From IMG/VR virus record IMGVR_UViG_3300036829_000060, positions 1 through 44,318 of that record: a stretch of DNA of 44,318 nt. One strand, 5' to 3'. Positions 8,988-39,206 of this stretch are shown piece after piece. Made by a program: the position numbers and the translations under genes. The notes below the pieces were generated by a model that saw nothing but the letters and a program-made list of their open reading frames with translations, made no database searches and was not told where the DNA came from. Position 1 is the first letter of the stretch. Every line of letters starts with the position of its first letter. The stretch is from a virus.

Positions 8988-9302
8988 ATGGCTGACCTAT
9001 TCCACAGTGACGCAGGCGGTTTCACTATGCACGTAGATCTCAGCGGCGGCTACGACGCTGGTATCACAGCCGAGATCGACCAGAAGATTCGTCACATGAC
9101 ACGAGTCGAAATGTATTGCCACACAAAGGCAGAAGAACTCAAAGCCGCCACCGGGAGCGGCAACTTCCGGGTCTACGCGCAGACACGGAAAGAAACTCAG
9201 CGACCACGATTCTATGTCGCACCGTTCAATCGTGAAGGAATCCACGAGGAACTGTCGCAGGCCGTGCTACTCAAAGCAGCGTTGGGAATGAGTGGTAAAT
9301 GA
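8988..9302 (+). CDS. head-tail connector protein (gp10/HK97-like)
   Basis: 104 residues. Pattern: start LFHSDAGGFTMHVDL, a central helix with KAEELKAATG, then RPRFYVAPFNREGIHEEL. This fits the small tail-completion/neck proteins between stopper and tail terminator. The stop overlaps the next ATG (ATGA, 9299-9302). The assignment relies on order and size. Confidence 0.65.
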   Translation: MADLFHSDAGGFTMHVDLSGGYDAGITAEIDQKIRHMTRVEMYCHTKAEELKAATGSGNFRVYAQTRKETQRPRFYVAPFNREGIHEELSQAVLLKAALGMSGK

Positions 9303-9775: not shown

Positions 9776-10375
9776 ATGACTGCACCAGTTACCGCTGACA
9801 ATGTTCTCGAATTGCTGGCACCATCACCACGCACATCCGGCTCGATCCTGTGGGCTCCCATCGGAACGGCGCTCCCCACAACGTCTTACGCCATCCTCGA
9901 CGGTGCAGCGGGCGCGTTTGTCGACCTCGGCTTCGCCGACGACAACGGACTCAAACAGCGTGAAACCCGTTCTACCACAGACGTGTTTGTGTGGGGCGGC
10001 GACCTGGCCGGTACGTTGCAAACCCAGTATGACCGGACAATGACGTTCCGGCTCATGCAGTTCCGCAACACCGAGGTTCTCGCGGCGGCGTATGGAATCT
10101 CGAATGTCTCTGTCGTACCGGCGACTTCGACAAACGGCAAGGAAATCGCCGTCAAGCTGAACCCGAATCTTCTCGACACCAGGTCGTGGGTGTTCGACGG
10201 GTTCTACGCGGAAAACCTTGTGCGCGTTGTTATTCCGATCGGTCGCGTTGTGACGGTCGGCGAGGTCGACATGACCCACAAGGCGTACATGACCATCGAA
10301 TGCACGCTCAAGGCGTACCCCGACAGCAACAAGAACCACGGGTACCTCTACATCAACGACGGGGTGACCACGTAA
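9776..10375 (+). CDS. major tail protein
   Basis: 199 residues, beta-rich with typical tube-protein content: LWAPIGTALPTTSYAILDGA, LGFADDNGLKQRETRSTTD, VFVWGGDLAGTLQTQYDRTM, and a C-terminal WVFDGFYAENLVRVVIPIGR. These segments are characteristic of siphovirus major tail proteins of actinophages, which polymerise as the tail tube. ATG 9776 has AAAGGC about 11 nt upstream. It lies between the tail terminator and the tail chaperones, as expected. Confidence 0.92.
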   Translation: MTAPVTADNVLELLAPSPRTSGSILWAPIGTALPTTSYAILDGAAGAFVDLGFADDNGLKQRETRSTTDVFVWGGDLAGTLQTQYDRTMTFRLMQFRNTEVLAAAYGISNVSVVPATSTNGKEIAVKLNPNLLDTRSWVFDGFYAENLVRVVIPIGRVVTVGEVDMTHKAYMTIECTLKAYPDSNKNHGYLYINDGVTT

Positions 10376-31024: not shown

Positions 31025-31062
31025 CTACGGTAGTTGACATTCTGTATATACACGATTAGAGT
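31025..31062 (+). promoter_or_regulatory. promoter of the first early operon
   Basis: The -35 is TTGACA at 31034-31039 and the -10 is TAGAGT at 31057-31062, separated by 17 nt: the best sigma-70/SigA-type promoter in the window. The 9-mer CTACGGTAG (31025-31033) touches the -35 on its upstream side. Confidence 0.75.
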
Positions 31063-31076: not shown

Positions 31077-31463
31077 CCGCTAGCCCACTCGGAGCCAGCG
31101 GCGCACGATTCGCCGGAATTCACCCGGCAGCATGGCAATCACCCGGTCGACGGGGCATCTCCACTACGTCGAACCACCTCGGGGCGCAGGACGACCGACG
31201 GATGTATAGCGAGTCAGGCTGAAGAGTCAGACGGAATTCTCCAAAAACCTAAGCGCTGCTAGGGGACACAACCCAGCACGCCCAATCGCACAACAAAGCT
31301 CGTCGAACCCGTCCTGAACGGTGAGGCCAACCCGTCCGTGAACGGTGAGCAGCGGACCTGCGAAGGGGTCTCCTTCAATCGAAACCCGTTGCCGCAAGGT
31401 AAGCGGGTCTACCGGCTTTGGCATGCCGGTACTGAAGAGAATGCCAAACAGATTGGAGACAAA
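31077..31463 (+). other. long early-operon leader without a convincing gene
   Basis: About 390 nt between the promoter and the first early start codon. It holds two copies of CGTCC(G)TGAACGGTGAG (near 31312 and 31334) and a hairpin TACCGGC/GCCGGTA (31410-31431), then the shared leader AAACAGATTGGAGACAAA at 31446-31463. Frames here lack good starts. The length and structure suggest leader-mediated control. Confidence 0.55.
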
Positions 31464-31688
31464 ATGAAAGTAACCAACACCATCACACAGCTGGTTGTCA
31501 CCCTGTTCAACAAGTCGCAGCGCTTTGACTTCGGCAACGTTGATGAGGCAGTAAGCGAGATCCACGCGGTAGCCAAACGGCACGGTTACTCGTGCCTGGT
31601 CGATTACATCGGCGACGATCCGCAACTGAGCTGGACTTTGGTTCGCATGTCTGACAATCACACAGTCGGGCGTGCCTTTATCCGCTGA
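31464..31688 (+). CDS. hypothetical early protein
   Basis: 74 residues from ATG 31464, fixed by the shared leader GATTGGAGACAAA. Pattern: VTLFNKSQRFDFGNVDEAVS, a helix EIHAVAKRHGY, then a beta-rich end (LVDYIGDDPQLSWTLVRMSD). The fold may be a small alpha-beta. Its UGA stop is the first three bases of the intergenic element at 31686. Not recognised. Confidence 0.75.
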   Translation: MKVTNTITQLVVTLFNKSQRFDFGNVDEAVSEIHAVAKRHGYSCLVDYIGDDPQLSWTLVRMSDNHTVGRAFIR

Positions 31689-31758
31689 GTAGTACTAGGC
31701 CAGCCTCGAAAGAGGCTGTGCCAGTGGACAACTCAGTCCAAACAGATTGGAGACAAAC
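31686..31758 (+). repeat. structured intergenic element, copy A
   Basis: Order: TGAGTAGTACT (starting with the upstream stop codon), a hairpin CAGCCTC-GAAA-GAGGCTG, a small hairpin TGGAC-AACTCA-GTCCA, then leader AAACAGATTGGAGACAAAC and ATG 31759. CTGAGT at the front can alternatively pair with ACTCAG in the second loop. Confidence 0.85.
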
Positions 31759-31941
31759 ATGGTAACAAGCAACATCCTCGGCTGGAACGTAACCCACACC
31801 ATCGAGGTTGTGTTCGTACCCAATAACCACGGCTACCCGTACGCAGCCGAATGTTCATGCGCTTGGCGGTCAAACACCTACGCTTCTCGGCACGCCGCAG
31901 AGCAGATGGGCGCTGATCACCTGGCCACCGTTGCTAACTGA
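31759..31941 (+). CDS. hypothetical early protein
   Basis: 60 residues from ATG 31759, after the leader; an in-frame TTG inside the leader (giving METN) is rejected because it overlaps the ribosome binding site. Pattern: HTIEVVFVPNNHGYPYAAEC, SCAWRSNTYASRHAAEQMGA; two Cys and several His could bind metal. It resembles a small double-stranded-RNA-binding-like or zinc fold only vaguely. The stop is inside the next intergenic element. Confidence 0.75.
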   Translation: MVTSNILGWNVTHTIEVVFVPNNHGYPYAAECSCAWRSNTYASRHAAEQMGADHLATVAN

Positions 31942-32010
31942 GTAGTACTTGGCCAGCCTCGAAAGAGGCTGTGCCAGTGGACAACTCAGTCCAAACAGAT
32001 TGGAGACAAA
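31939..32010 (+). repeat. structured intergenic element, copy B
   Basis: Almost identical to copy A (same hairpin CAGCCTC-GAAA-GAGGCTG and same TGGAC-AACTCA-GTCCA), beginning with the stop of the upstream gene and ending in AGATTGGAGACAAA before ATG 32011. Confidence 0.85.
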
Positions 32011-33579
32011 ATGAAATCACAAGAAATGGCACAGGATATTGTTGCTTCGCTTCGCGCCCGTAACCCGATCATCTGGGTTGTGACCCGCGAGGAAGGGCGT
32101 GTTGAGCCTTACCTGTTCGAGGCTGGTGTGTCTGCGAACTACGAACCCGTATTCTGGGATGTAGCAGCAGGATTCACCGGCATCGACGGCAAACCGCTTA
32201 GCACGTTCGACAACGGCGCTGACAGTCCCGACGCTGCTCTTGACGCAATCAACGACGCGACCAGCCGGAAGCTGTGGGTACTGCGGGATTTACCTGTGTG
32301 GCTTGCACCGCCGGTTGGTCTGCTCACACTACGCAGGTTGCGTAATCTTGCGCGTTCACTGCCCGGTCGCGACAGCGACAAGGCACAAGCCGTCATCGTG
32401 ATCTCACCTACAAAAGACGTGCCTGCTGAATTGGCGGACCACACAACGGTTTACGAGTGGCCGCTGCCTGACCGCGAGGAAATCGCCGCGCTGCTCGATG
32501 TTGCAATCGAGTCGCTACCCGACGATATGCAAGCGACTGCCCTTAACGGCAGCCGTGACGCGGCAATCGATGCAGCAGTCGGACTCTCGGGTGAAGAGGC
32601 GCAAGCAACCTTTGCCCGGTCGCTGGTACAAACCAAGCGTATCGACCCCGCTGCTGTGGCCGCTGAGAAGCGGCGCGTCGTCGCCAAGACTGGCGGCGCC
32701 GAATGGTTCGACCCAATCGAGGGCGGGCTGGAAGCTGTTGGTGGGCTGGACAATCTGAAATCGTGGCTCGTGTCGCGTGCCAGTGCGTACAGTCCAGCTG
32801 CCCGCGAGTACGGTCTGCCTGCTCCCAAGGGTGCCATTCTGGTTGGCGTTCCTGGTTGCGGTAAGTCGCTTGCCTGCAAAGCGATTGGCACAGAGTGGAA
32901 CATTCCGGTAATACGGATCGACCTCTCCGCGCTCAAAGGCAAATATGTGGGTGAGTCAGAGGCCAACCTGCGCAACACCTTTAGCATGATCGAAGCTATC
33001 GGGCGTTGCGTCGTGTGGGTAGACGAAATCGAGAAAGCTCTGGCTGGCTCGGTCGACGGTTCGGCTGATGGCGGCGTGAGCGCGGACGCTCTCGGGTTCC
33101 TGCTCTCATGGATGCAGGAACGCCAGGGCGAGGCGTTTGTTATCGCGACGGCGAACAACGCTGAGAAGCTACCGCCGGAATTGTTGCGCAAGGGCCGCTT
33201 TGACGAGGTTTGGTGGGTTGACCTGCCCAACCGTGTCGAGCGTGAATCCATCATTGCGGCAGCGCTGCGCTCCAATAAGCGCAACGCCAGCAAGATTGAT
33301 CTTGCTGCTGTCGCTGACGCTACCGACACGTTCACAGGTGCCGAGCTTGCTGCTCTGGTACCCGATGCAATGTTCGCAGCGTTCAATGATGGTGCCCGCG
33401 AGGTCACAACGGACGATCTGCTGCTAGCAGCTAAAGTTGTTGTGCCGCTTGCGAAAACGGCGAGTGAGAAGATCACTCGTTTACGTGAGTTCTGGTTGGG
33501 TCGCGCACGGCCTGCTACAGCGGCCATTGCCGAAGCTGTCCGCAAGGGCAGCAAGGCAAGGCAGCTGGACCTCAACTGA
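32011..33579 (+). CDS. AAA+ ATPase, Ycf46-like
   Basis: 522 residues. The N-terminal 200 residues start with NPIIWVVTREEGRVEPYLFE, the pattern of Ycf46-type proteins. The AAA+ core has Walker A GVPGCGKS (about 279-286), Walker B VVWVDEIEK (about 334-342), sensor-1 ATANN (about 379-383) and the GRF motif RKGRFDEVWW (about 393-402) with the likely arginine finger. Such ATPases form hexamers that remodel or unfold partners. It is the largest early protein, framed by structured elements on both sides; the two following genes are likely partners. Confidence 0.88.
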   Translation: MKSQEMAQDIVASLRARNPIIWVVTREEGRVEPYLFEAGVSANYEPVFWDVAAGFTGIDGKPLSTFDNGADSPDAALDAINDATSRKLWVLRDLPVWLAPPVGLLTLRRLRNLARSLPGRDSDKAQAVIVISPTKDVPAELADHTTVYEWPLPDREEIAALLDVAIESLPDDMQATALNGSRDAAIDAAVGLSGEEAQATFARSLVQTKRIDPAAVAAEKRRVVAKTGGAEWFDPIEGGLEAVGGLDNLKSWLVSRASAYSPAAREYGLPAPKGAILVGVPGCGKSLACKAIGTEWNIPVIRIDLSALKGKYVGESEANLRNTFSMIEAIGRCVVWVDEIEKALAGSVDGSADGGVSADALGFLLSWMQERQGEAFVIATANNAEKLPPELLRKGRFDEVWWVDLPNRVERESIIAAALRSNKRNASKIDLAAVADATDTFTGAELAALVPDAMFAAFNDGAREVTTDDLLLAAKVVVPLAKTASEKITRLREFWLGRARPATAAIAEAVRKGSKARQLDLN

Positions 33580-33654
33580 GTAGTACTCTGGCGCATAGGC
33601 TTTCGGGTCTATGCGCTGGCTGGACAACTCAGTCCACAACGATTGGAGACAAAC
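33577..33654 (+). repeat. structured intergenic element, copy C
   Basis: Starts with the ATPase stop codon in TGAGTAGTACT. Its hairpin is GCGCATAGGC/GTCTATGCGC with loop TTTCGG (33591-33616), different in sequence from copies A and B but in the same place. TGGAC-AACTCA-GTCCA and CGATTGGAGACAAAC follow, before ATG 33655. Confidence 0.85.
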
Positions 33655-34383
33655 ATGACTGAATTTCGTACGCTACAGCCTGGCCTGCTGGTCAACATGA
33701 ACACCAGCGTTAAGGGCAACGTGACCTATCAAGTCAACGACCGCGACGTGAGATACGTTGACCGGTCCGAGATCACCGATATTCACACCCGCAAGCTCGT
33801 CGCAGACATCGATGAGCAGGAACGGGCCATCAAGGAACGCACCAAGATCCGCGGATTGATCCTGTCGGTATGCGCCAAGTCTGAGTTCGCGCTGCTCTGC
33901 CCAAACGACAGAGAGGCCGAGCTGCGCGAGGCCATCGCCGAAGGGCGAACGCTCGCAGAGAAATTTAACGCCAACGCCTCGACAACCCACATAGAGTTTC
34001 GGGTCATCTGCGGTCGCATCGCACAAGACGACGTAGAGACTGTGCGAGCCATCACGAGCGAGATTCGCTCACTGATGGAAGACATGCAACGCGGTGTTAA
34101 AGCGTTGGATGTCAAAGTGATTCGCGCTGCCGCTAACCAAGCAACCGAAGTCGGCAAAATGCTTTCACCGGAAGCAAAAGGTCGCGTAGCGGTCGCCATC
34201 AAGGCAGCACGTGACACAGCGCGCAAGATCGCTAAGGCCGGTGAGGTTGCCGGGCAAGAGATCGACCGTGGCGCACTGCGCAAGATCGGCAAAGCGCGAA
34301 CGTCGTTCTTGGACATCAACACCGAGGTTGCCGAACTGGCGGAACCGAAAGCCCAGGGACGCAACATCGACCTATCTGCCTGA
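33655..34383 (+). CDS. hypothetical coiled-coil protein, probable ATPase partner
   Basis: 242 residues from ATG 33655. A short beta-rich front (LQPGLLVNMNTSVKGNVTYQ, VRYVDRSEITDIHT) is followed by long charged helices (DIDEQERAIKERTKIRGLIL; VKVIRAAANQATEVGKML; ARDTARKIAKAGEVAGQEID). It lies between the AAA+ ATPase and the 34456 gene with the same element on each side, suggesting shared control and a joint job. Family not recognised. Confidence 0.75.
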   Translation: MTEFRTLQPGLLVNMNTSVKGNVTYQVNDRDVRYVDRSEITDIHTRKLVADIDEQERAIKERTKIRGLILSVCAKSEFALLCPNDREAELREAIAEGRTLAEKFNANASTTHIEFRVICGRIAQDDVETVRAITSEIRSLMEDMQRGVKALDVKVIRAAANQATEVGKMLSPEAKGRVAVAIKAARDTARKIAKAGEVAGQEIDRGALRKIGKARTSFLDINTEVAELAEPKAQGRNIDLSA

Positions 34384-34455
34384 GTAGTATTCCCCCACTC
34401 TCCAACGGAGAGTGCGGGTTTGGACAACTCAGTCCACAACCGATTGGAGACAATA
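34381..34455 (+). repeat. structured intergenic element, copy D
   Basis: TGAGTAGTATT with the upstream stop, hairpin CACTCTCC-AAC-GGAGAGTG (34396-34414) with CCC/GGG outside, TGGAC-AACTCA-GTCCA, then CGATTGGAGACAAT and ATG 34456. The stem has no sequence similarity to copies A-C but the same position. Confidence 0.85.
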
Positions 34456-34794
34456 ATGGCATGCGACACAATGCTTTCGATGGGTCAGACGTTGACTCAG
34501 CGCAAAGATCAGGTACGCAAAGCAGCGGCCACCATCGACAAGCTGATAGCGCAGCGCAAAGCGGGCGTGAAAGTCGGTCCGCAGGGTGCCGTCACGTTTA
34601 CCGGCATCCCCGACGCTGACCGCTCTGGCATGACGGACGCTTGCGTCTACCGGATGTTGACGCGTAGCGGTTCTGCTGCTGCGAAGATGGCCATCATGCG
34701 GGCAGAGCAGCTGGCGGGCCGTAGCGTGAATCGTGCAGCCCTGACAGCGGGTGTGCATTCGCACGATGGCGGTAACACCTGGTCGGCGCACTGA
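34456..34794 (+). CDS. hypothetical protein of the ATPase module
   Basis: 112 residues from ATG 34456. Pattern: CDTMLSMGQTLTQRKDQVRK, VKVGPQGAVTFTGIPDADRS, TDACVYRMLTRSGSAAAKMA, and a His-rich end GVHSHDGGNTW. I recall similar proteins being common in phages, but I do not know a function. It contains Cys and His that might bind metal. Its stop starts the next intergenic element. Confidence 0.75.
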   Translation: MACDTMLSMGQTLTQRKDQVRKAAATIDKLIAQRKAGVKVGPQGAVTFTGIPDADRSGMTDACVYRMLTRSGSAAAKMAIMRAEQLAGRSVNRAALTAGVHSHDGGNTWSAH

Positions 34795-34869
34795 GTAGTA
34801 CTCTGGCGCACAGGCTTTCGGGTCTGTGCGCTGGCTGGACAACTCAGTCCACAACAAAGATTGGAGACA
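34792..34869 (+). repeat. structured intergenic element, copy E
   Basis: Same as copy C except that the hairpin is GCGCACAGGC/GTCTGTGCGC (34806-34831): the T-A pair of copy C has become C-G on both arms, a compensatory change. TGGAC-AACTCA-GTCCA and AGATTGGAGACAAT follow, before ATG 34870. Confidence 0.85.
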
Positions 34870-35058
34870 ATGATGGACCCAAACACTGCGCTAGCAGAAC
34901 TGCGCAAGTATGCGATGGGATCAAAAGAGGAGTGGGCCTTACTGTTTGAAGGTCTGGACTCGTGGCTGTTGCGCGGCGGATTCCTGCCCGACGACTGGGC
35001 GAAAGCCCAAGAGGCAGACAAGGCGGCGCTGCGAATAGCGTTGGGTCGCAAGCCATGA
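34870..35058 (+). CDS. hypothetical early protein
   Basis: 62 residues from ATG 34870 (a second ATG follows at 34873). Helical and Trp-rich: LAELRKYAMGSKEEWALLFE, LDSWLLRGGFLPDDWAKAQE. The stop overlaps the next ATG, so three more small genes are translated in series behind this one without intergenic elements. Not recognised. Confidence 0.7.
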   Translation: MMDPNTALAELRKYAMGSKEEWALLFEGLDSWLLRGGFLPDDWAKAQEADKAALRIALGRKP

Positions 35059-35592: not shown

Positions 35593-35667
35593 TGAGTGGT
35601 ACTCGTCCACCCTCGAAAGAGGGTGTGGCGCTGGACAACTCAGTCCACAACAGATTGGAGACAAAAA
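35593..35667 (+). repeat. structured intergenic element, copy F
   Basis: TGAGTGGTACT (here not the stop of any gene), hairpin CACCCTC-GAAA-GAGGGTG (35608-35625), TGGAC-AACTCA-GTCCA, CAGATTGGAGACAAA and ATG 35668. Compared with copies A and B a G-C pair in the stem has become C-G, a compensatory change. Confidence 0.85.
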
Positions 35668-36006
35668 ATGAACAAGTCAATGGTGATCGCAGCAGTAGCG
35701 GGCGGGCTCACAGCAATCGCGGTGAGCATGGCTCAGGATGCACACGCTGACGAGTCGTCTTACCTTAACGAGGTTTCCGCTCGTGGTGTGCCGATCACAT
35801 CAGCGACGCTGACGCTCGGACATCAGATCTGCTCCGACATATCGTATTACGGAGTCGACGGCATCGAGAAAGACGCGAGAGCTGCTGTCGTGGCGGGCGT
35901 TTCAGCCCATGACGCTGCGGTGCTGATCGTTGTGGCAGTGTACGAGCTGTGCCCGTCCAACCATGGCGCGCTGAACGCGTGGCTGTACCCGACAACGGAA
36001 GCGTGA
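35668..36006 (+). CDS. secreted DUF732-type protein
   Basis: 112 residues from ATG 35668. Signal peptide: MNKSMVIAAVAGGLTAIAVS and on, with cleavage after AHA (about residue 27). The mature part matches DUF732, a small helical domain with two Cys found mainly in secreted mycobacterial proteins: YLNEVSARGVPI, LGHQICSDI, GVSAHDAAVLIVVAVYELCP. Role unknown; as an exported early phage product it could act on the envelope, for example against superinfection. It supports a mycobacterial host. Confidence 0.85.
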   Translation: MNKSMVIAAVAGGLTAIAVSMAQDAHADESSYLNEVSARGVPITSATLTLGHQICSDISYYGVDGIEKDARAAVVAGVSAHDAAVLIVVAVYELCPSNHGALNAWLYPTTEA

Positions 36007-36133: not shown

Positions 36134-36149
36134 GAGACACTTAAAAGAG

Positions 36150-36183
36150 CCTCGGCAGGATTCGTCCTGACCGAGGTTTTTTT
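36150..36183 (+). terminator. intrinsic terminator of the first early operon
   Basis: An 11-bp stem with one A bulge: CCTCGGCAGGA, loop TTCG, TCCTG-A-CCGAGG, followed by seven T. It ends the operon that starts at the 31034 promoter. Confidence 0.92.
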
Positions 36184-36342
36184 ATGTCCAAAATCGCTGG
36201 TCACATGCTTGCTTCGCTACCGTAGCGTCTGTAATACCTTGCGTATATACAACTTTCGGCTGTCAGCGTGTCGCATCCTTGACCTGTCACCAGGTGAGCG
36301 TACTGTCCAGCCAGACGACCAATCAAAGACTGGAGACAAACC
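36184..36342 (+). promoter_or_regulatory. control region of the second early operon
   Basis: Contains the 16-mer CTTCGCTACCGTAGCG (36212-36227, identical to 26248-26263) and a candidate promoter TTGACC (36279-36284), 16 nt, TACTGT (36301-36306). A short inverted repeat ACCTG/CAGGT lies within the spacer. The leader GACTGGAGACAAA (36328-36340) then precedes GTG 36343. TATATAC near 36244 is an alternative -10. Confidence 0.5.
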
Positions 36343-36582
36343 GTGGACGACGACATGACACACATACTCATGCGCTTCGCACGCTGCACCGAAATCATCA
36401 CAGCCGAGCACCATCCCGACGAGCACGGCATGCCATACGTTCTGCACATCGACGGCGGCAAGCACCACGGCACCGTAATCCATGTCATGACAGAGCAATC
36501 CGTCACCCGCCTGTTCAACGAGGTTGTGGCAGCACGCAAGCTGGGCGACGACCACGAACACCCCTACTTGAGCGCCGTCTGA
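36343..36582 (+). CDS. hypothetical early protein
   Basis: 79 residues from GTG 36343, set by the leader variant GACTGGAGACAAA. Rich in His and acidic residues: ITAEHHPDEHGMPYVLHIDG, GKHHGTVIHVMTEQSVTRLF. The beta-hairpin-helix pattern suggests a small alpha-beta fold. The UGA stop is part of the palindrome at 36580. Not recognised. Confidence 0.7.
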   Translation: MDDDMTHILMRFARCTEIITAEHHPDEHGMPYVLHIDGGKHHGTVIHVMTEQSVTRLFNEVVAARKLGDDHEHPYLSAV

Positions 36583-36599: not shown

Positions 36600-36613
36600 G
36601 ATTGGAGACAAAC
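36600..36613 (+). repeat. shared leader GATTGGAGACAAAC without the hairpin element
   Basis: A full copy of the ribosome-binding leader before ATG 36614, joined to the 16-bp palindrome instead of the hairpin element. It shows the leader is a unit of its own. Confidence 0.8.
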
Positions 36614-36952
36614 ATGTATCCCGAAGAGGTTAATCGAGATCCGGCACGTATCCATGGTGCCGACGAAATGTGGACTAGCGCACTCAATCGCCTGGACAAA
36701 ATCGTCGCATACATCAGGACGATGGAACCCGACATCTATACGGCGGCAGGTGAAAACCATGACAGCTCAGTGCTTTACGACTGGCTCAAGGGCTACATCA
36801 TGATTGCTGAAACTCGCGGCGGGAGGGTGGCACGTCAGACAACAACACTGATGTGTGCTGCCGCGCTCACAAAGCTGGTGCGAGCGCCACGCACCGACGA
36901 CCCACTGGCGCAACTAGATTGGAAGGAACCAGAAGATGACGACCAGCACTGA
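36614..36952 (+). CDS. hypothetical early protein
   Basis: 112 residues from ATG 36614. Helical: ARIHGADEMWTSALNRLDKI, YDWLKGYIMIAETRGGRVAR, MCAAALTKLV, and an acidic end (PEDDDQH). It overlaps the next gene by 17 nt. Not recognised. Confidence 0.7.
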   Translation: MYPEEVNRDPARIHGADEMWTSALNRLDKIVAYIRTMEPDIYTAAGENHDSSVLYDWLKGYIMIAETRGGRVARQTTTLMCAAALTKLVRAPRTDDPLAQLDWKEPEDDDQH

Positions 36953-38122: not shown

Positions 38123-38388
38123 TGTGTCACCTATGCGACGAGCGGCTGGCTAACGCCAACGAGGCTTGCGACGAAATCCTTGACGTACAAACAGAATTCC
38201 GTGAGCACTTCCCCGAGCGCACGCACAGCCAGCGGGTTAGCGACATGGCGAATATGTGGCTTAGAGATTTGCCCATGCACCGCGACACGCCGCCGGAAAC
38301 CCTTACGGTAGTACAGAATATAGCTCTGTTCCTGGCGACGATGACCGAGCGTGTCATCGACCTGAAACGAGAAGCCAATGTGTCATGA
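38119..38388 (+). CDS. hypothetical protein with N-terminal CHxC motif
   Basis: 89 residues from ATG 38119 (a second ATG at 38122). Starts MMCHLCDERL, then helical (EILDVQTEFREHFPERTHSQ, LTVVQNIALFLATMTERVID). The next gene starts with the same motif, suggesting related proteins. It overlaps that gene by 11 nt. Confidence 0.65.
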   Translation: MMCHLCDERLANANEACDEILDVQTEFREHFPERTHSQRVSDMANMWLRDLPMHRDTPPETLTVVQNIALFLATMTERVIDLKREANVS

Positions 38389-38629
38389 GTGTGACCGCGA
38401 GATCGAGGGTATCCGCCCTATGGCAGACTCGCTGATAGCGGCTGAGCGTGCCGTACGTCGCGTGTACGAGGGGGACACGGAAGCCCAGCACACAGTTCGC
38501 CTGGCCTGCACCATCGTTGACACGTTCCATGATTCGGGTCATGACATCAAGGCGTTGTGCCTGGCGTATGCGTTGGTGATTGAGAAATTGCTTGCGGTGC
38601 AAGAGATTTACGGGATAGAAACCGTATGA
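38378..38629 (+). CDS. hypothetical protein with N-terminal CHxC motif
   Basis: 83 residues: MCHECDREIEGIRPMADSLI, then helices (AERAVRRVYEGDTEAQHTVR, ALCLAYALVIEKLLAVQEIY). Last gene of the operon; the terminator stem begins 5 nt after its stop. Function unknown; probably a divergent copy of the preceding gene, as both begin MCHxCD and are helical. Confidence 0.65.
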   Translation: MCHECDREIEGIRPMADSLIAAERAVRRVYEGDTEAQHTVRLACTIVDTFHDSGHDIKALCLAYALVIEKLLAVQEIYGIETV

Positions 38630-38634
38630 GGACC

Positions 38635-38686
38635 GGCGGCGTGCTGCTGTATGGCTTTGTCTCCAATCCGGTGGCACGCCGCCTTT
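38635..38686 (+). terminator. intrinsic terminator with a loop antisense to the shared leader
   Basis: Perfect 10-bp arms GGCGGCGTGC (38635-38644) and GCACGCCGCC (38674-38683), extendable by five further pairs including wobbles, followed by TTT. The 19-nt loop (38650-38668) contains CTTTGTCTCCAATC, the exact reverse complement of GATTGGAGACAAAG. The first 13 nt of that sequence occur in front of at least six genes between 31.4 and 36.6 kb. Confidence 0.88.
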
Positions 38687-38762: not shown

Positions 38763-39206
38763 ATGGCATTTCAAAAGATTGAGGTACCGGCTGGCAACTT
38801 CATGGGATGGAGTAACACCAAGACGGGTCAGGTAGTCCAGGGCAAGGTGCTGGACTACAGCGAGACAGACGGCAGGGACTACGCGAAAGATCCGTGCCCC
38901 CTGCTGACTGTCGAGTTGAACCGCAAGGCTACGTCAGTCAACAAAGAGGGTGAGCGAACGGTTTACGAACCGGGAGACGAGCTTTCGATCACGTGCGGTC
39001 AGGCCAACTTGAAGAAGTCGGTCAAGAAAGCCGACCGCGACGTGGGCCTCAAACGTGGCTACCTCGTACGGGTCGAACTCGTGCAGTTCGAGAAGGTACC
39101 GGACGGCACCGTGAAAGTCTTTGAGGTCCAAGTGGACTCGTCTACCGGCGAGGAACACAGCGACCACGACGGCGCAAGCGGTGACGACGACGAGCCGCCG
39201 TTTTAA
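38763..39206 (+). CDS. single-stranded DNA-binding-like protein
   Basis: 147 residues. The body is beta-rich (TGQVVQGKVLDYSETDGRDY, PLLTVELNRKATSV, ELSITCGQANLKKSVKKADR), consistent with an OB-type fold. The end is strongly acidic and closes in GDDDEPPF, the arrangement of the SSB C-terminal tip that recruits replication partners. ATG 38763 has a strong ribosome binding site; an ATG at 38758 leads to a different frame. It is the first replication-type gene of the window. Confidence 0.72.
   Translation: MAFQKIEVPAGNFMGWSNTKTGQVVQGKVLDYSETDGRDYAKDPCPLLTVELNRKATSVNKEGERTVYEPGDELSITCGQANLKKSVKKADRDVGLKRGYLVRVELVQFEKVPDGTVKVFEVQVDSSTGEEHSDHDGASGDDDEPPF

Follow-up and report, generated by a model that had tools for sequence, protein, structure and literature searches.

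The window, by which we mean the whole stretch of DNA analysed here (an IMG/VR virus record of 44,318 bases), belongs to a mycobacterial phage, and the terminases closest to its own come from Mycobacterium abscessus prophages, at less than 50% identity. None of the isolated phages matches the region from 31 to 39.2 kb by DNA, and cluster O phages share the AAA-ATPase and one of its neighbours at 53-56% protein identity. From 31.4 to 37 kb, a 13-nt leader lies a few nucleotides 5' of the start codon of eight genes, and one variant copy is present in addition. Direct reading and a pattern search of the window placed GATTGGAGACAAA at 31451, 31745, 31998, 33641, 35653 and 36600, and GATTGGAGACAAT, the form ending in AAT, at 34442 and 34859. 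The earlier note had named this leader in front of the genes at 31464, 31759, 32011, 33655, 35668 and 36614, with a shorter match at 34456 and 34870; these eight copies were all found as named, and a ninth, the variant at 36328 before the GTG start at 36343, had been overlooked. The leaders and the elements that precede them are as follows.

31368 to 31380, plus strand: partly antisense stretch GTCTCCTTCAATC with a 3-nt bulge, upstream of the first leader
31377 to 31449, plus strand: type II hammerhead ribozyme (Rfam RF02276, 39.2 bits against a gathering threshold of 37)
31451 to 31463, plus strand: leader before the ORF 31464-31688
31686 to 31739, plus strand: element X copy 1, a pseudoknot (UGAGU:ACUCA and GGAC:GUCC) round a variable hairpin
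31745 to 31757, plus strand: leader before the ORF 31759-31941
31939 to 31992, plus strand: element X copy 2
31998 to 32010, plus strand: leader before the AAA-ATPase gene 32011-33579 (phrog_8638)
33577 to 33635, plus strand: element X copy 3
33641 to 33653, plus strand: leader before the ORF 33655-34383 (phrog_11021)
34381 to 34435, plus strand: element X copy 4
34442 to 34454, plus strand: leader ending in CAAT, before the ORF 34456-34794 (phrog_11784)
34792 to 34850, plus strand: element X copy 5
34859 to 34871, plus strand: leader ending in CAAT, before the ORF 34870/34873-35058
35593 to 35646, plus strand: element X copy 6
35653 to 35665, plus strand: leader before the ORF 35668-36006 (phrog_658)
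36328 to 36341, plus strand: variant leader GACTGGAGACAAAC (copy GACTGGAGACAAA, which differs from the common leader by one change), before the GTG start at 36343
36600 to 36612, plus strand: leader before the ORF 36614-36952

The repeated leader and the RNA elements before it

The leader is a short asymmetric motif with a Shine-Dalgarno core that stands near the start codons of many right-arm genes, and by these sequence features it represents a new version of a type known from cluster K mycobacteriophages, the Start-Associated Sequence (SAS). The two sequences are unrelated: the window leader GATTGGAGACAAA does not match the cluster K consensus GGGATAGGAGCCC within two changes, and it is therefore SAS-like rather than the cluster K SAS itself. 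Neither a comparable SAS nor an Rfam RNA was found in the cluster O phage Firecracker, and the M. abscessus prophages with the nearest terminase carried no SAS. The ESAS of cluster K, a 17-bp imperfect inverted repeat that, with a SigA-like promoter, precedes about half the copies, was not found at the window leaders, and a promoter scan gave no promoter-like site at them except that at 31034. This SigA-like promoter (31034-31062; TTGACA, 17 nt, TAGAGT) lies about 400 nt 5' of the first SAS, and the long leader between the two is unalignable among relatives. Within these otherwise unalignable leaders, GTCTCCTTCAAT is identical in four phages, 75-90 nt 5' of the first SAS (window 31368-31380; L295 9554; L291 9096; L292 4623), and the duplex of the stretch at 31368-31380 with the SAS is predicted at -13.5 kcal/mol. 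A strong hairpin with a T-run that resembles an intrinsic terminator (GCCTCGGCAGGATTCGTCCTGACCGAGGTTTTTTT) is located at 36145-36185, 3' of the gene block led by element X.

Three relatives were found by protein and pattern searches of IMG/VR, namely G001 (IMGVR_UViG_3300036829_000040), G002 (IMGVR_UViG_3300049435_000021) and L247 (IMGVR_UViG_3300036792_000044), whose AAA-ATPases share 89%, 66% and 73% identity, respectively, with that of the window. The hammerhead of the window, which stops 1 nt before the first SAS, has the core of the type II class (CUGANGA, GAAA, GUC), stems I-III and the pseudoknot between loop I and the tail, the stems and pseudoknot having been checked individually. Scores elsewhere were 45.1 bits in G002 and 36.5 bits, just under the threshold, in L294. 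By core, stems and loop I:tail pseudoknot (UGGCA:UGCCA, UGGCU:AGCCA, UUUGGCAU:AUGCCAAA), six hammerheads were recognized in L247, which were not reported by the Rfam scan and thus rest on the structural check, and two in G002, each directly before a SAS. Hammerheads are positioned at 9109, 9419, 9919, 11583, 12407 and 12831 in L291, at 4636 and 8291 in L292, and at 9895 and 12454 in L294.

Six of the window leaders are preceded by element X, a pseudoknot of 54-59 nt that begins at the stop codon of the previous gene and in which UGAGU pairs with ACUCA inside the loop of GGAC:GUCC. It is also present in L295, L291 and L292, and both of its helices are 100% paired in 14 copies, with double-sided changes (GAGC:GCUC, GGGU:ACCC and GGGC:GCCC; UGAAU:AUUCA). 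None of 500 shuffles matched the observed pairing, double-sided pairs or covariation score, and slid controls gave 33-40%. Element X is absent from Rfam, and 399 Mycobacteriales genomes, searched without a positive-control genome among them, gave no matches. Since element X and the hammerheads fill the same slot, element X is a candidate for a role in RNA processing or self-cleavage.

The hairpin and its conservation

Downstream of the leader-bearing genes, a single reverse copy of the leader is enclosed in a hairpin.

38378 to 38629, plus strand: ORF whose stop lies 5 nt 5' of the hairpin; in the relatives, too, the hairpin follows a homologue of this ORF
38635 to 38683, plus strand: anti-SAS hairpin with a 15-bp stem (38635-38649 / 38669-38683) and a 19-nt loop (38650-38668)
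38655 to 38668, minus strand: exact reverse leader copy inside the apical loop, reading CTTTGTCTCCAATC on the plus strand

Exact over 14 nt, this copy is the sole reverse-strand match to the leader within two mismatches in the window, and a second one appears only at 3 mismatches. In 400 first-order Markov sequences generated with the composition of the window, a reverse copy of 12 or 13 nt never occurred; for the 10-nt core, the expected count under the same composition is 0.04. The predicted folding energy of the hairpin is -33.8 kcal/mol (z -3.0; 0 of 200 shuffles), and Rfam contains no family to which it corresponds. Its loop has the 19 nt given to it previously, and its stem, previously put at 10 bp, comprises 15 bp, that is, 10 Watson-Crick pairs and 5 more that include G-U. 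The designation as a terminator has to be withdrawn, as only TTT follows the stem in the window and no U-tract is present in G001 and L247 (TTTAAC in the window; CCGTAC, CTCTCA and TTTCAT in the relatives). The combination of a GC-rich stem with a U-tract is thus missing, a terminator scan that permits loops of only 3-8 nt has no entry for the hairpin, and the hairpin is not a canonical intrinsic terminator.

Duplexes between the loop and the SAS copies are predicted at -17 to -25 kcal/mol in the four phages, compared with a mean of -9.0 and a best value of -18.9 kcal/mol for 68 other starts of the window against the loop; pairing of the SAS leaders with the anti-Shine-Dalgarno 3' end of 16S rRNA reaches only -8.7 to -11.4 kcal/mol. 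The loop is mostly unpaired in the hairpin ensemble, with the exception of the last two bases of CUCC, which are predicted in a 3-bp UGG:CCA helix within the loop (unpaired probability about 0.03), so that this helix would have to open for full pairing with the SAS.

The three relatives each possess 6-7 SAS-led genes and one reverse copy, which forms the loop of a strong hairpin directly 3' of a stop codon, and in all three the hairpin follows the homologue of the ORF at 38378-38629. When stem pairs were aligned outward from the loop and counted by script, 15 of 15 were kept across the four phages, 10 of them with double-sided change and 0 broken; these four are the only window-type genomes known, and their hairpins are homologous and of one origin. 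The 16-nt GGCTTTGTCTCCAATC is identical in three phages, and in G001 it agrees at 15 of 16 positions, the A to G change still permitting G-U pairing with the SAS. Arms exchanged between phages form 5-9 of 12 pairs (11 for the window with G001, its closest relative). The loop is therefore frozen while the stem drifts with compensation, the opposite of the independent loop drift that the earlier note had named as refuting its interpretation. Read on the minus strand, the stems would pair less well (12/15, 14/15, 14/15 and 14/18), which indicates that the hairpin RNA is the plus strand; an RNA of the minus strand is disfavoured by the G-U pairs. The offset of the loop frame is 27, 26, 27 and 29 nt in the four phages, so that the reading frame through the hairpin changes and it is the RNA, not a peptide, that is conserved. 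A conserved peptide across the hairpin, suggested by a 20-aa ORF in the window, was rejected on the same ground. The 19-nt loop string has 17 further occurrences in the databases (2 on viral and 15 on bacterial contigs), which act as a control, as none has the hairpin and none the repeated SAS; scans with the bare 14-mer gave matches that are mostly chance. The hairpin has the features of an antisense element directed at a ribosome-binding site, with an apical loop complementary to the target site and a conserved stem. These comparisons support the view that the antisense match of the loop to the leader is not accidental and that the loop is probably selected as a plus-strand RNA matching the SAS.

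The AAA-ATPase of the more distant phage contig L294 is 58% identical, and this contig carries a third SAS-like repeated leader, AACCGCGAAAGG, at 9273, 9945, 11624 and 12516, three copies of which are directly 3' of hammerhead-like sequences. No antisense loop for AACCGCGAAAGG was found in the 18.4 kb of L294 that the search covered.

A second antisense loop in cluster K phages

The SAS of cluster K is a 13-nt asymmetric sequence with a Shine-Dalgarno core that stands before many right-arm genes and is conserved beyond what pairing with rRNA would require (PMC3203893; PMC11373665). Its role was described as unknown in 2011 (PMC3203893) and still in 2024 (PMC11373665), and the authors in 2011 raised the question of a phage or host RNA or protein as its binding partner (PMC3203893). 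They also recorded in each of Anaya, Adephagia, Angelica and CrimD a single reverse-oriented SAS, at no obvious gene start, which was left unexplained (PMC3203893). In 11 of the 11 sampled K1 phages that carry it, this reverse SAS coincides exactly with the 10-nt apical loop of a hairpin, CCTCCTATCC; GCGCGG/CCGCGC closes the loop, and a further stem of 10 bp lies outside it. The inner stem is shorter in Murucutumbu, and the loop of Amelie has one additional base. Random 10-mers fell in such loops in 9 of 1500 cases in Anaya and in 14 of 1500 in the window. The K1 stem is 99.3% paired, as against 33-49% for slid controls, with modest double-sided change. The association of a SAS with an anti-SAS loop thus recurs, at the level of sequence and predicted fold, in two SAS families of unrelated sequence. 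The loop is absent from 9 of the 20 cluster K phages sampled, in several of which SAS copies are still visible, and it is therefore not obligatory.

The reverse copy of Adephagia maps to about 58,685, between gp92 and gp93, and late transcription apparently begins within this intergenic region (58447-58878; PMC11373665). In Anaya, the region between gp96 and gp97 (L010 34683-35067), like its orthologues in other cluster K phages, contains about 350 nt of conserved intergenic sequence with several strong hairpins and a conserved GGCTGGTCACC block; this sequence resembles a structured leader or a noncoding RNA situated where late transcription reportedly begins.

Possible function, alternatives and known systems

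Based on the conserved loop and the compensated stem, a possible mechanism was proposed in which the hairpin at 38635-38683 acts as a phage antisense RNA element whose stable stem keeps the apical loop open. The loop could form a kissing interaction over 12-14 nt with the SAS of 8-9 early genes, and this pairing would cover the Shine-Dalgarno core GGAG and block ribosome loading on all SAS-led genes together. Later transcription crossing the hairpin would then shut off the early genes, a timing suggested by the position of the K1 hairpin in the intergenic region of the reported late-transcription start. We consider it somewhat probable that an antisense hairpin RNA blocks the start sites of the SAS-led early genes jointly. 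As the loop stays frozen among the relatives on a stem that changes, the phage probably controls its early genes together through the hairpin, and repression in trans is plausible from these sequence comparisons; that the RNA is made and stable, acts in trans, represses, and exerts shut-off as later transcription passes the hairpin is what we infer.

The two main alternatives are a reversed direction of control and pairing in cis. In the first, the hairpin would be the target: abundant SAS leaders, as short 5' regions of mRNA freed by ribozyme cleavage, would bind the loop and thereby govern termination, processing or translation at the hairpin, and hence the ORF at 38763-39206. The hairpin does lie between genes of an apparent operon in 4 of 4 phages, ribozymes precede the SAS leaders, and with 6-9 SAS copies to one loop, titration of the loop would be stoichiometrically easy. 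However, it is the gene upstream of the hairpin that is constant, whereas the downstream gene varies (the next ORFs of the window and L247 are unrelated), and the K1 hairpin has a different gene context, so that this possibility appears rather unlikely. A slightly lower probability is given to long-range pairing in cis, by which the SAS and the loop would fold or stabilize one polycistronic early transcript with no separate RNA. The SAS genes and the hairpin share a strand over a span of about 7 kb, and the second antisense-like stretch 75-90 nt before the first SAS is present in 4 of 4 phages; yet a single loop could not pair with eight sites simultaneously, ribozymes or element X would be expected to cut such a transcript, and the K1 loop is in an intergenic region that is the reported start of a different, late transcript.

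It is improbable to a similar degree that the hairpin is kept for RNA stability, processing or factor binding, with a loop that imitates the 16S rRNA 3' end or derives from an inverted SAS. Such an origin would fit the K1 loop CCUCCUAUCC, which resembles the anti-Shine-Dalgarno sequence, and the occurrence of CCUCCUUCCCC in its place in some K phages, but the match in the window family, at 12-14 nt, extends well past the CUCC common to rRNA, and each of the two SAS types matches its own loop. Recombination can copy exact repeats, and many K phages lack the reverse copy, both of which would be expected of a functionless SAS copy inserted or inverted in a hairpin by chance or as a DNA-level repeat. 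A loop that stays frozen on a compensated stem in four phages while the frame shifts through the hairpin, and a single copy that is always apical and recurs in an unrelated SAS family, make this reading very improbable, and on sequence evidence it is strongly disfavoured.

Joint repression by the antisense hairpin could also form part of a larger, RNA-only switch, in which hammerheads or element X, the latter as a new class of self-cleaving ribozyme, would cut the polycistronic early transcript before each gene and the antisense hairpin would kiss the tag and shut all the genes off. This proposal is speculative and on balance unlikely. If it were true, the early mRNAs would all begin shortly 5' of one common start tag, and the same anti-tag logic with a different tag would have arisen or would persist in cluster K mycobacteriophages.

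The anti-SAS loop is a concrete candidate for the partner of the SAS, testable in the laboratory phages Adephagia and Anaya on M. smegmatis. It would explain the conservation of SAS positions that are unable to pair with rRNA, and the hairpin offers a testable answer to why mycobacteriophages carry start tags. Cluster K phages are among those in therapy use, which gives the control of their genes practical interest.

The claim of the earlier note that no described phage system has this exact layout requires qualification, as the repeated leader belongs to the SAS type and a lone reverse SAS was noted in 2011 (PMC3203893). A hairpin loop as the site of the reverse SAS is not described in the cited cluster K SAS papers. 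The window leader resembles the cluster K SAS as a 13-nt motif with a Shine-Dalgarno core before right-arm genes, conserved beyond rRNA pairing, with many copies preceded by another conserved element and, as in K1 phages, one reverse copy; the upstream element of cluster K, the ESAS, is a promoter-bearing inverted repeat, whereas that of the window is an RNA pseudoknot or a hammerhead. Two RNAs provide precedents for the proposed mode of action. In phages P1 and P7, the loops of the c4 antisense RNA are antisense to the ribosome-binding region of a phage mRNA and block its translation (PMC12197685). The target of c4 is the ant mRNA, whereas the window loop matches 8-9 scattered genes with an identical tag, its action being predicted. 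The mycobacterial B11/6C sRNA pairs through hairpin loops with the ribosome-binding sites of several mRNAs (PMC10470900); unlike the window hairpin, to which it has no sequence relation, it belongs to the host, has poly-C loops and pairs over 6-7 nt. Clustered hammerheads of prophages, which are of type II with a loop I:tail pseudoknot, flank genes of a phage operon in several copies (PMC3088659). In contrast, the hammerheads of the window family each stand directly before an identical start tag and are exchangeable with an undescribed pseudoknot.
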